From positions 510,465 to 574,464 of the forward strand of contig NC_000853.1 of the NCBI RefSeq assembly GCF_000008545.1: a stretch of DNA of 64,000 bases. The letters are read 5' to 3'. A program made the position numbers and the translations under genes. The notes under the pieces were generated by a model, which was not told where the DNA came from, searched no databases, and saw nothing but the letters and a program-made list of their open reading frames with translations. Each line of letters begins with the position of its first letter. Within the stretch, counting starts at the first letter, position 1. Shown one piece after another: positions 49,037 to 53,283 of the stretch. The stretch is from Thermotoga maritima MSB8 (lineage in GTDB: Bacteria > Thermotogota > Thermotogae > Thermotogales > Thermotogaceae).

Positions 49037-49618
49037 ATGCTGAAATACAGACTGAGAAGTAAGAGAGTTGAAGAACTCGTTGAGTACGCGCAGGCAGGAT
49101 TCAAAGAAGCCATCGACCTCATTGTTGAGAAGTATTACCCTATGGTTGTTAAGATCGCTTCCCAGTATTTTGCGAGCTGGGCCGAACACGAAGATATAGT
49201 TCAAAACGGCCTTGTGGGATTGATAAAGGCGATTTTCTATTACGATAAAACCAAAAGCTCTTTCACGTCTTTTGCATGGAGGAGTGTTGACTCCGAGATA
49301 AAGTCCTTTCTCACTTATCTGAACAGAAAGAAGAACAGGATGCTCTCAGACGCTGTGAACGTGGATGGTATGGAAAAAGAGGAAGATGACGCACCTTTTG
49401 AAGTGCCCGATAGCGAGACCGATGTTGCCAGAAGCGCATTTTCTGGCATAATTTTAGAAACAGTCCTTGAACTATTGAATGAAAAAGAAAAAGAGATCTT
49501 TCTCAGATGGCTTGATGGATGCTCATACAGCGAGATAGCGAAAGAGCTCGGTGTGAACACAAAGAAAGTTGACAACACGGTTCAGAAGGTGAAGAGAATG
49601 ATTTCTGGATTAGGGTGA
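49037..49618 (+). CDS. RNA polymerase sigma factor (SigH-like, sigma-70 family)
   Basis: A 193-residue group 3/4-type sigma factor. Region 2 has AEHEDIVQNGLVGLIKAIFY and FTSFAWRSVDSEIKSFL; region 4 has SEIAKELGVNTKKVDNTVQK. The linker is acidic (EKEEDDAPFEVPDSE). It resembles SigH of Firmicutes; no anti-sigma gene is recognised, though the next gene encodes a one-helix membrane protein. ATG one base after the permease stop. Confidence 0.9.
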   Translation: MLKYRLRSKRVEELVEYAQAGFKEAIDLIVEKYYPMVVKIASQYFASWAEHEDIVQNGLVGLIKAIFYYDKTKSSFTSFAWRSVDSEIKSFLTYLNRKKNRMLSDAVNVDGMEKEEDDAPFEVPDSETDVARSAFSGIILETVLELLNEKEKEIFLRWLDGCSYSEIAKELGVNTKKVDNTVQKVKRMISGLG

Positions 49619-49624
49619 TCGAAG

Positions 49625-50242
49625 ATGAAAAAAGACAGTCTCGTAACGTTTTTCGCTTCTTTGATAGTCATCGCTATTTTACTCTTCTTCGTGCTGTCTG
49701 TTTTCAATTTCTATTTTTTGAAGAAGCTTGAAGCCAGGATGGACGAAGTGGAAAAACAGTTTCAAACCACACTGGAAAGTTACGAAGAGCGACTGAAGAT
49801 ATTAGAGGAACTTCTGAAACCCAATTCCATTATCAGTCGCTATATAACTGCGTACGAATACTTTGAAAAAGCCAGCGTGGATTTTGAAAGGATATTTTCT
49901 GAGATCGAAGACGATCCCACGACTGGATACATGAGGATTTTTGTCATAGGGAACGATCCTGTGTGGATCACCGTCAAGGACGGAAACGAAGTGCTCTTTT
50001 CAAGGGACGTGAAGCCAGGTCTTTCACCTTACAGGTTCTTCTACTACAAAAAACCGAAGATCTCCACAGAATACGATATTGTAATACCACGAGACGCCAC
50101 CTTAATAGTGGGGATTCCAAACAGGGTGTTCCTGCTCGTTTTCGGGGTCGGGACAACCTACCATCCCACGAAGATCGTTCAGGTACAGCAGACCAGAATA
50201 GACAACATCGAGCGTGATTTGAAGCTTTACATACCTAAATAA
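49625..50242 (+). CDS. Membrane-anchored protein of unknown function next to the sigma factor
   Basis: A 205-residue protein with one N-terminal helix (about 7-33), a coiled coil (34-65, KKLEARMDEVEKQFQTTLE) and a beta-rich outer domain. No family recognised. It lies 6 nt after the sigma gene. Position makes an anti-sigma or sensor role conceivable, but no anti-sigma motif is seen. A GC-rich hairpin follows it. Confidence 0.7.
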   Translation: MKKDSLVTFFASLIVIAILLFFVLSVFNFYFLKKLEARMDEVEKQFQTTLESYEERLKILEELLKPNSIISRYITAYEYFEKASVDFERIFSEIEDDPTTGYMRIFVIGNDPVWITVKDGNEVLFSRDVKPGLSPYRFFYYKKPKISTEYDIVIPRDATLIVGIPNRVFLLVFGVGTTYHPTKIVQVQQTRIDNIERDLKLYIPK

Positions 50243-50250
50243 AAACACAA

Positions 50251-50270
50251 GGAGGGACTTTCGTCCCTCC
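50251..50270 (+). terminator. Hairpin ending the long hslV-to-sigma run
   Basis: Stem GGAGGGAC/GTCCCTCC (8 bp) with loop TTTC starts 8 nt after the stop, followed by a moderately T-rich tract (catactttgtgtcttgtctt). A likely transcription end, though the T run is imperfect. Confidence 0.65.
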
Positions 50271-50322: not shown

Positions 50323-50425
50323 ACACGCAAGTTAGAATTTAACCGATCTCCGTAACATCCTCTTGAAACGATGAAAAAGAACGCCTTAAATTTTCTTGAA
50401 AAACCCTTGAAAAAGGAGGGGTGAA

Positions 50426-51010
50426 ATGAAGTACATTTTGATCAAAGGTTTGAGGTTTTTCGACTACCCGGGGGGCTGGTTGTTTTTTCGGAAAGAACTG
50501 GACAGCGCAAAACTTGAACTTTTGAACCACGTCTTGAGGACATTTGAAGGAGTGTTTGTGTTTATAAACCTCTTTTCAGAAGAGGTGGATCCTATCATCG
50601 CTGAAAAATTCATAAAGGACTATATTCCTCAGAATTCGATTGTTCTGGATGAGATCGTGGATTATCTCGATGTTTCTGTTGAACGAAGGCTGGATTTTTC
50701 CTACCCTGAGTTCACGTCTTCTCCCCTCTCTGAAAAATGTGAATGCCTCGTGTACGATGGTGAAAGATTCGAAAGAATAGATCTTTCGGGTTTCAAAGTA
50801 AGGCTCGAAGAAATAAGTGTTTTCAGCGAATTGATGGAAGTTCCCGAGGAGTCTTTTACCCTTTTGAAAGGGATCCTCTGGGATCGGGAAGTCGAGAGAA
50901 TAAAGAACAAAAGAAGCGTAAAGTTCGTTGGTAAAATCTTGAAAAAGAAAAACCGGCCAAAGCTTGATGCATTGCTGCTGGAAGAAATCGAAACGGGGGA
51001 TGAAACATGA
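50426..51010 (+). CDS. Unknown protein, partner of the SMC-like ATPase
   Basis: A 194-residue soluble protein that I do not recognise. It is hydrophobic/aromatic at the N-terminus (YILIKGLRFFDYPGGWLFF) and ends in a basic then acidic helical stretch. It shows no metallophosphoesterase motifs as expected for an SbcD-type nuclease. ATG follows AAGGAGGGG. It overlaps the ATPase gene by 4 nt (ATGA), so the two are coupled. Confidence 0.75.
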   Translation: MKYILIKGLRFFDYPGGWLFFRKELDSAKLELLNHVLRTFEGVFVFINLFSEEVDPIIAEKFIKDYIPQNSIVLDEIVDYLDVSVERRLDFSYPEFTSSPLSEKCECLVYDGERFERIDLSGFKVRLEEISVFSELMEVPEESFTLLKGILWDREVERIKNKRSVKFVGKILKKKNRPKLDALLLEEIETGDET

Positions 51011-53283
51011 AAATAGAGCGTGTACACGTTGAAGGGTTTGGAAAATTCGAGAATTTTTCTTTCCCCCTGAAAAGCGGGTTGAACATCATCTTCGGAGGGA
51101 ACGCAGCTGGAAAAACCACCCTTGCGAATTTTATAAGATACTGCCTCACGGGAGAGCTTCCCGAACTTGAGAACTACAGGCCATGGTTTTCGAACAGGTT
51201 TGGGGGATATCTCGAGACGAGTGAGGGAAGGGTGGAATTCGGTCAGGGAAGACTGGATCCCGAACTGTTTTCCTTCACTTCTTTCATATCGGAGGGAGTG
51301 GACAACACCCTCAACGGTTCGAAAAAGGTCGCTTCCTTCCTTATGGAAAGCTACAGAAACAGACCCGAAGCAGTGGAACTTGAAAGGATATTGAACGAGG
51401 ATTTCTCTGTCTTGATGAAGAAGACGAAAGAACTGGAGGCTGAGATCTCAAACCTGAAAGAGAGAGTTGAGGCCTGGAAAGAAAAAAGGCGATCGCTCCT
51501 TCTGGTTTTGAAGAGAAAGAAAGAGCTTTCGCGGGATCTTCAGGAGAAGAGAAGACTTCTGGAGGAAGAGATCGATAGATTCGAGAGTGAAAAATCTGAG
51601 AGATTGTCTTCTATCGAAGCCAGAATCAATGAGGTGAAAGCGGAGCTTCTCCGTGTTGAAAAAGAACTCGAGGAGATCGAAAGGGAAACAGCGGTTCCTG
51701 AGGAAAAAGTTCGTGAAGCGATCGAGCTTGCCCAGAAACTGGATTATTTGAGAGAGCGCGGTGAAGAACTGAAAAGAGAGATAGAATCACTCGAGGAAAA
51801 ATCGAAAGATACGGAAGAAAGACTGAAGACGATCATGAAAGACTTCTCCGTCAGCAGTCTTGAGGAACTGAAACTCAAGTTGGAGAACATGAAGTTACAG
51901 ATAGAACTGGTGGAAAACGAGCAGAAAGCAAAGCTGAACGAGATAATAGGTCATCTCAGAGAGCCTCTCAGGGAAATTGATGAAAAACTCGAAGAAATTC
52001 AGGCAAAGATCGAAAATACAGGTGACCACATGAAGCGCTTCGACAAAACACTTTCTATTTTCAGGGTTTTTGTTGCCGTCTTCCTGACCTTTGCTCTGGT
52101 TTCCATCATTTTTGCCTTTCTCAAGCCGGGATACCTGTTCTTCTATCTGACACTGGCAGGAACAGGTGCCTCTGTGATTTCCATGTGGAACTATTACAGG
52201 TTGAGAAAGAAATTGTTTGAACTTGAAAGTGAGTTCATGAATCTTTCGACACAAAAGAGGTCTTTGATCGAGAGAAAGAACCAGATCGTGAGCAAGCTGA
52301 AGGAAACCGCAGGTGTTGATAACATCGAAGAACTCGAAAAATTTTTGAGGGATCAGATCGTGAAGAAGGTCTTCGAAAGAATACCGTTTCTTTCGAAGTA
52401 CGGAAGTGAACCACGAAAGGCGGTTGAAAACGTGGAAGAACAGATGAGAGAACTTCTGATTTTGAAAAGCTCCGTTGAGGCTTCTCTGTCCGACAAGAAA
52501 AAGAATCTGGAAGAACTGCAGGAGTACTCCAGAGAGCAGGAAGAAGTACTGAAAAACACGCTGAAGGAAATAGGAGTCGACAGCGAAGATAAATTGAAGG
52601 TGTTGAGAGACCTTCTGGAAAGACGTGCAAATCTGAGAAAAACCAGAGATTCACTGGAAAAAGAAATCGCTAACCTCATGAAAGAAAAAGAAGAGATAGA
52701 ATCAAGCAGATCAAACGCGAGAATAGAAGAACTCAAAAGAGAAGTGGAACAGATAGAAAGTGAACTGGAGAAACTCGTGGTTTCACCTCTCGAGGAACCT
52801 TTCGATGTTCTGGAAGCTCTCTTCAGGAAGAAGGTTGAACTCGAGATTCTTGAGCGGGCCATTGGTTACATTCCCGAGTTTAAGGATCGGATCAAAAAAG
52901 AACACGAGGAACTGTTGAGGGGTTACACAAGGGATCTGGCAGTAGAGTTGACGGATGTTTACAGAAGGTTCTTCAAAGAAAATCAGGTTTTCAAGGTTTC
53001 TCCGGATCTGATGGTGACGATTAACGTTCCCGAAGAAAAAAAGGTTGTCGATGTGTTGAACACCTCCGCTTTGAAACTCCTGAGTTTTCAGATGAAGAGG
53101 TTCATAAGTCGTGTTCTGGAGATTGAGAGTCCCTTTGTTGTGGACAACACTTTTGTCGATCTGGACGATGAGAAGATAGATCTACTCTGGCAGGAACTGA
53201 AAGAGGTGTCCAAGACCAGACAGGTTGTACTATTCACCAGCGACAGGAGGCTTTTGAAAGAAGAACCCGTTTTGAAACTCTAA
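51007..53283 (+). CDS. SMC/Rad50-like AAA ATPase with a membrane hairpin in place of the hook
   Basis: A 758-residue protein. Residues 1-100 form an SMC/RecF-type N-terminal half (IERVHVEGFGKFENFSF, P-loop GGNAAGKTT at 30-38). Coiled coils span about 125-345 and 398-600. Between them, about 350-395, lie two hydrophobic helices (FRVFVAVFLTFALVSIIFAF, then LFFYLTLAGTGASVISMW) where Rad50 has its zinc hook. The C-terminal head has SPFVVDNTFVDLDDE near 710, a Walker B/D-loop in which the catalytic Glu is replaced by Asn, and no clear LSGG. It resembles YhaN-type proteins. Membrane attachment is inferred. Confidence 0.82.
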   Translation: MKIERVHVEGFGKFENFSFPLKSGLNIIFGGNAAGKTTLANFIRYCLTGELPELENYRPWFSNRFGGYLETSEGRVEFGQGRLDPELFSFTSFISEGVDNTLNGSKKVASFLMESYRNRPEAVELERILNEDFSVLMKKTKELEAEISNLKERVEAWKEKRRSLLLVLKRKKELSRDLQEKRRLLEEEIDRFESEKSERLSSIEARINEVKAELLRVEKELEEIERETAVPEEKVREAIELAQKLDYLRERGEELKREIESLEEKSKDTEERLKTIMKDFSVSSLEELKLKLENMKLQIELVENEQKAKLNEIIGHLREPLREIDEKLEEIQAKIENTGDHMKRFDKTLSIFRVFVAVFLTFALVSIIFAFLKPGYLFFYLTLAGTGASVISMWNYYRLRKKLFELESEFMNLSTQKRSLIERKNQIVSKLKETAGVDNIEELEKFLRDQIVKKVFERIPFLSKYGSEPRKAVENVEEQMRELLILKSSVEASLSDKKKNLEELQEYSREQEEVLKNTLKEIGVDSEDKLKVLRDLLERRANLRKTRDSLEKEIANLMKEKEEIESSRSNARIEELKREVEQIESELEKLVVSPLEEPFDVLEALFRKKVELEILERAIGYIPEFKDRIKKEHEELLRGYTRDLAVELTDVYRRFFKENQVFKVSPDLMVTINVPEEKKVVDVLNTSALKLLSFQMKRFISRVLEIESPFVVDNTFVDLDDEKIDLLWQELKEVSKTRQVVLFTSDRRLLKEEPVLKL

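Follow-up and report, generated by a model that had tools for sequence, protein, structure and literature searches.

The ATPases outside the Thermotogota that lie nearest to the one considered here are, by sequence, those of the YhaN (SbcE)-YhaO family. SbcE (YhaN) of B. subtilis has been described as an SMC-like protein involved in double-strand-break repair (PMC4205851), and yhaONM, called a putative break-repair cluster, is switched on in B. pumilus together with the SOS genes (PMC3896406). The AAA_27/AAA_23 head of YhaN is split by coiled-coil arms that carry a hydrophobic hairpin at mid-coil, and the gene for its partner lies directly upstream, often with a 4-base overlap. That partner, YhaO, is a protein of about 406 aa with DxH, GD, GNHD and GHxH motifs. 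In the literature that we searched, which was partial, YhaN and YhaO received passing mentions only and no paper on TM0535-TM0537 was found; we do not claim that a nuclease-dead pair is unpublished.

SMC and Rad50 proteins are usually viewed as ATP-cycling motors or nuclease gates. In ABC ATPases the residue following the Walker B Asp activates water, and in Walker B Glu-to-Gln trap mutants the heads tend to stay engaged. The locus described here lies in a window of 64,000 nucleotides (the whole stretch of DNA that was analysed) from Thermotoga maritima MSB8. It encodes a small partner protein and an ATPase, which we take to be TM0536 and TM0537 respectively. On balance we favour the view that the pair is a degenerate, membrane-anchored YhaN(SbcE)-YhaO relative, a cousin of Mre11-Rad50, that serves as a non-cutting clamp or scaffold. 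It would be a well-conserved variant of YhaN-YhaO in which a naturally occurring Walker B Asn has become fixed. The features of the locus, in window positions, are as follows.

50251..50270, + strand: terminator-like hairpin between the upstream gene for a 205-aa protein and the pair (consensus scan only)
50363..50392, + strand: weak promoter-like site, 9/12, 5' of the partner (consensus scan only)
50426..51010, + strand: partner open reading frame, 194 aa, boundaries exact; probably what is left of a YhaO (Mre11/SbcD-type) subunit after decay, devoid of metal-binding motifs
50711..50728, + strand: partner motif F-T-S-S-P-L, residues 96-101; candidate equivalent of the YhaO/SbcD 'GSP' loop after GHxH
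51007..51010, + strand: ATGA overlap of the partner stop and the ATPase start, read from the sequence
51007..53283, + strand: YhaN-type SMC/Rad50-like ATPase, 758 aa (Pfam, VIA-align and exact open reading frame)
51094..51120, + strand: Walker A, residues 30-38, GGNAAGKTT, intact (sequence and alignment)
52066..52185, + strand: predicted transmembrane hairpin at the coiled-coil tip, residues 354-393 (hydrophobicity and AF2)
53056..53070, + strand: ABC signature in degenerate form, LNTSA, residues 684-688 (LS-x-[GAS]-T in the family)
53143..53148, + strand: Walker B Asp713 followed by Asn714, which replaces the catalytic Asp/Glu (VVDN; sequence and alignments)
53236..53244, + strand: switch region T-S-D, residues 744-746 (T-C-H in most YhaN relatives)

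The family of the ATPase is established by matches to AAA_23, AAA_15 and AAA_27 above the Pfam cut-offs (AAA_27 at 9.1e-6, 25.8 bits against a cut-off of 22), with Walker A in the N-terminal part. NCBIfam gave generic SMC/Rad50-like matches only, all below cut-off, and a PDB sequence search returned nothing at E 0.01. The AF2 model, built with 24 sequences (mean pLDDT 74.1, pTM 0.37), has an alpha/beta head formed from both ends of the chain and two long helical arms. Foldseek placed Rad50 and Smc5/6 at the top of the list, and VIA-align superposed the head on Rad50 5da9_A at Z 21.0 (rmsd 4.4 over 321 residues) and the ATPase on Rad50 3qf7_A at Z 20.0 and on a Lamassu chain at Z 17.7. The pair shares with Mre11-Rad50 (SbcCD) the head fold (Z 20.0-21.0) as well as the two-gene layout.

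An earlier note on this DNA had placed two hydrophobic helices between the arms, where Rad50 has its hook, and this is upheld. The mid-coil stretches at residues 354-372 and 375-393 have mean Kyte-Doolittle (KD) values of 2.90 and 1.28, with a loop of two residues between them and K/R-rich flanks on both sides, while the Rad50 from the same genome, taken as a control, peaks at 0.70 mid-coil. At the arm tip the AF2 model has helix 282-372 and helix 376-435 with only a tight turn of three residues (373-375) between them, not the soluble helical bundle that would have spoken against a hairpin, and at the moderate confidence of the model there is no folded SMC hinge domain between the arms. Neither protein contains a CxxC, and no zinc hook was found in the ATPase, whose single Cys is at position 46. 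In Thermotoga the second helix scores low (KD 1.18-2.03; 1.28 in this species), and in most other genera it is stronger; insertion into the membrane, to whatever depth, is a prediction.

The catalytic residues are where the Thermotoga ATPase differs from YhaN, since the Asp/Glu has become Asn, T-C-H has become T-S-D and the signature reads LNTSA. The GKTT of Walker A was present in 34/34 genomes read. The replacement of the Walker B acid by Asn, already noticed in the earlier note, is clear from VVD713-N714, and the same position was Asn in 36 of the 39 Thermotogota genomes in which it could be read (42 were examined, but the contigs of G011, G034 and G054 end inside the gene). The exceptions, G048, G086 and G093, have Asp and all carry full-length partners. 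Outside the Thermotogota the count was 45 Asp, 3 Glu and 0 Asn, from the 48 parsed of 77 loci belonging to the best 80 of 192 relatives. The T-S-D switch occurs in 34/36 of the Asn genomes, whereas elsewhere C-H is the commonest pair (27/48). The signature, which had been called not obvious, is indeed degenerate: Thermotoga genomes have LNTSA and other genera retain LS-x-[AS]-T or near variants, although a few picks made by the regular expression fall outside the true signature. In a 19-row alignment Asn714 is invariant, as are Walker A, the Asp of Walker B, that of the D-loop and a Gln close to the switch. Identity to the first sequence is only 22-56% for 16 of the other 18 ATPases, and at such divergence the invariance of the Asn argues for a kept function and not for drift. 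With Asn in 36/39 against 0/48, the alignments indicate that Asn714, the hairpin and the degenerate signature are not chance features.

Nor is this a standard SbcCD pair, as had been suspected. The Rad50 of the same genome has FFIDEGF and THD, residues which the window ATPase lacks along with the CxxC hook, and the same genome's Mre11 has DWH, GNHD and GHIH, whereas the window partner is devoid of metallophosphoesterase motifs. Since a normal Mre11-Rad50 pair is thus present elsewhere in the genome, the window pair need not be required for the usual processing of breaks.

The partner had been described as a protein without nuclease motifs, and this is confirmed: it has 0 Pfam matches and neither GNHD nor GHxH, and the DxH and GD metal motifs are likewise missing (loose DxH and GD expressions give accidental matches in short partners, e.g. 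DAHF on another strand, which were not counted). NCBIfam and the PDB gave no credible match to it, a single PDB sequence match being at chance level, and PADLOC gave 0 matches. An AF2 model of the window partner, built from three sequences, had a pLDDT of 36.3 and was not used. The pairing is constant, the partner gene lying directly before the ATPase in every Thermotogota locus that was read through, and the ATGA overlap, which is exactly as first noted, makes translational coupling likely. Most of the Thermotogota partners are of a short type of 180-246 aa (after choice of the start) and the remainder are of a full-length type of 352-433 aa; the partner of G023 is interrupted by a run of N, an assembly gap.

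The partner had also been described as unknown; it has relatives across the Thermotogota, and most likely it is a decayed YhaO and not a novel protein. Among the full-length YhaO types of this phylum G086 is intact, G093 has GQID for GNHD and GSEH for GHxH, and the G048/G054 partners have lost the motifs while 342 columns still align with the YhaO profile (prob 99.7, E 2.8e-25). In the same order the match to Pfam Metallophos weakens, from 4.8e-16 in L160 and 9.8e-10 in L161 to 0.023 in L132 and 0.052 in L133, and there was none in L135 or in the short partners scanned. The short partners of one sub-family, L123-L127, match YhaO in register through 'PENV' (E 4e-4; score 29.8 against 12.9 +/- 2.4 in shuffles, reached by 0/60), and the final 50 columns of this sub-family align with the C-terminal end of the full-length bridging proteins (E 1.4e-3; score 25.2 against 11.2 +/- 1.8, again reached by 0/60), these hhalign E-values being uncorrected for about 100 comparisons. 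All short partners pooled gave nothing significant against YhaO (E 0.53), and the sub-families of Thermotoga, two other large groups and L135 had no significant YhaO match when taken alone; the link therefore runs through L123-L127, to which the other short sub-families can be connected because they match each other (e.g. Thermotoga against L123-L127, E 2.9e-8).

A further point of contact is the motif [SNTD][ST][SNC]P, found in 36/37 short partners read. From motif order and spacing we infer that F-T-S-S-P-L of the window partner is the equivalent of the GSP loop. PENV and GSP lie a median of 104 residues apart in YhaO (from the 39 parsed of 51) but only 15-18 apart in nine of the short partners, so that the short partner seems to retain the N-terminal region and the GSP-like loop without about 87 internal residues. 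Descent of the partner from YhaO is in our judgement probable, being supported by these comparisons and by the position of the gene though not proven.

The ATPase was matched in 42/61 related genomes by sequence search and in 44/103 genomes of the phylum by profile search, where the matches in G086 and G093 belong to another YhaN lineage. A match in G008, by eye an ordinary SMC, was dropped from the counts. Within the order, read by family code, 38/45 genomes carry the ATPase, and it is absent from genus g12 (4/4); the pair is single-copy and order-wide. No relatives were found in viral contigs, and a scan of genome contigs with the single sequence gave no match. When 84,980 species genomes were scanned there were 192 relatives of the ATPase, and the 80 best of these were examined. 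Of the non-Thermotogota relatives parsed from this set, 45/48 have a mid-coil stretch of KD at least 1.6 and 33/48 have a YhaO-type metallophosphoesterase with all four motifs (by regular expression) directly upstream; a separate scan found a YhaO-type protein adjoining the ATPase in 51 of the 80 loci. On this evidence the predicted hairpin is a YhaN-family feature and in itself not new. Two planctomycete YhaN-like ATPases, L111 and L112, have no such stretch (KD about 1.1) and lie alongside an intact YhaO, and at the threshold of the scan a hairpin was likewise missing from relatives of the Rhodobacteraceae type, of about 1140 aa (L075, L082, L085, L108, L117).

In a head-domain tree (44 sequences, 279 columns) all Asn-type ATPases formed one clade with support 99. 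An AU test allowed L132, which has Asp and a broken full-length YhaO, as sister of this clade (p-AU 0.525), and rejected L160/L161 as direct ancestors placed inside it (p-AU 0.007). The decay of the nuclease in L161 is therefore separate from that in the Thermotogales, and the full-length decayed proteins are not clearly the direct ancestors of the short partners. L160 and L161 are themselves sister YhaN-YhaO pairs of one family, of which one has an intact YhaO and the other a broken one.

Nuclease loss is also found in the Planctomycetota, where a hairpin-bearing YhaN again lies next to a broken YhaO, but where the partner is full-length and the parsed ATPases keep Asp-Asp. Of the aligned planctomycete YhaO partners, 14/15 lack GNH and the first His of GHxH, H4 being left out of this reading because it was misaligned. 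The loci concerned are L087, L091, L093, L097, L098, L099, L102, L105, L106, L109, L110, L113, L115 and L116, the broken motifs including AGGSIDPP and GGRH, with Asp-Asp in the adjoining YhaN where it was parsed. Judged from these alignments the planctomycete loss is independent of the losses in Thermotogota, and such repeated loss suggests that the complex has a role with no need for cutting; the main job of the ancestral complex may never have needed it. Only in the Asn clade is the motor residue changed as well.

Both genes are under purifying selection. For the partner, dN/dS was 0.062-0.201 in ten pairs with dS >0.1, and for the ATPase it was at most 0.24 where dS was unsaturated, compared with 0.05-0.094 for two neighbour genes. 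The pair thus changes at about twice the rate of the genes around it, yet is not decaying. In three very close Thermotoga pairs the partner values were 0.30-0.78, with few changes.

We propose that the complex probably holds DNA or membrane and does not cut DNA. The ATPase would be the YhaN subunit, with two heads in which ATP should still bind, Walker A and the Asp of Walker B being preserved. Because Asn takes the place of the water-activating residue in both sites of the homodimer, hydrolysis would be slow or absent and the heads would tend to stay engaged. The arms would lead to the helical hairpin, inserted in the inner membrane, and the partner would be a YhaO minus the metal ligands and about 87 residues of the catalytic core, and the portion retained probably braces the ATPase heads. 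Heads that are ATP-bound and not reset by hydrolysis could then keep DNA, or the edge of the nucleoid, close to the membrane. We put forward tentatively that the heads are locked by ATP, that the two proteins form a complex, that this binds DNA and that it acts as a tether; some slow turnover of ATP may still occur with Asn714, or the ATPase may have a different partner subunit. More speculative, and in our estimation rather doubtful, is the wider proposal that the whole order keeps a hydrolysis-blocked, membrane-anchored SMC/Rad50-like ATPase with a pseudo-nuclease as a permanent ATP-locked DNA-membrane tether, the nuclease of a YhaN-YhaO machine having been turned off first and then its motor. 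If true, both enzymes would be off and the complex nevertheless conserved, so that a structural role would be separable from catalysis. The pair could then also serve structural studies as a thermostable complex trapped by nature, and would give reason to ask what membrane-anchored YhaN-YhaO does beyond nuclease action.

It is unlikely that the complex is a still active ATPase, in which Asn714 does no harm or water is activated by a different residue, and which acts in DNA repair or uptake like SbcE of Bacillus. The invariance of Walker A, of the Asp residues in Walker B and the D-loop, and of the Gln near the switch would fit such an enzyme, as would the described ties of SbcE to break repair (PMC4205851) and of yhaONM to SOS induction in B. 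pumilus (PMC3896406); against this, all 48 other-phylum relatives read have Asp or Glu where Asn stands, and in Thermotoga the signature is degenerate too. A partner of different origin, an unrelated small protein that displaced YhaO beside a YhaN-type ATPase and brought a new activity to the complex, would account for the lack of any Pfam or PADLOC family and of a credible NCBIfam or PDB match, and for the sub-families, most of them, that lack a YhaO profile match. We consider it improbable, since the slot, strand and overlap are those of YhaO, one sub-family matches the N-terminal half of YhaO in register and bridging proteins at its C-terminus, and full-length broken YhaO proteins occur in the same phylum.

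Outright decay of both genes into functionless remnants would explain the fast divergence, which leaves the window partner with matches in only 8/61 genomes by single-sequence search, and its dN/dS of about twice that of the neighbours, higher still in the three very close pairs. With open frames in about 40 genomes, dN/dS of 0.06-0.20 in ten pairs and an invariant Asn and Walker A, however, this reading is already largely refuted and has very little probability left. The earlier note had suggested a membrane-linked DNA or defence machine; the hairpin predicts a membrane link, but the defence part is not supported. A Lamassu/SMC-type anti-phage or anti-plasmid module is suggested by matches of the ATPase to LmuB models (up to 3.4e-17, the best stretch being residues 1-56) and by the alignment to a Lamassu chain given above. 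The likeness to LmuB is however a generic one of SMC-like heads, as what the ATPase matches is no more than the head and coil common to numerous SMC-like families; no LmuA or LmuC was recognised beside it, the partner has no PADLOC match, the hydrophobic hairpin and the order-wide distribution set the pair apart from Lamassu, and the neighbour genes are ordinary, so that we regard such a module as highly improbable. The membrane-anchored, non-cutting relative of YhaN-YhaO is the reading that we retain.

The neighbours of the pair, by eye and Pfam, include pyrH-, phoH-, trpB- and amylase-like genes, and the cation-efflux gene downstream is convergent. Directly upstream, at 49625-50242 of the window, lies the gene for the 205-aa protein, which has no confident family and by eye an N-terminal hydrophobic segment; it is conserved in Thermotoga and in G010. 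Directly 5' of it, at 49037-49618, is a gene for a sigma-70-family factor, whose top scores were against SigH-type models, below the cut-offs.
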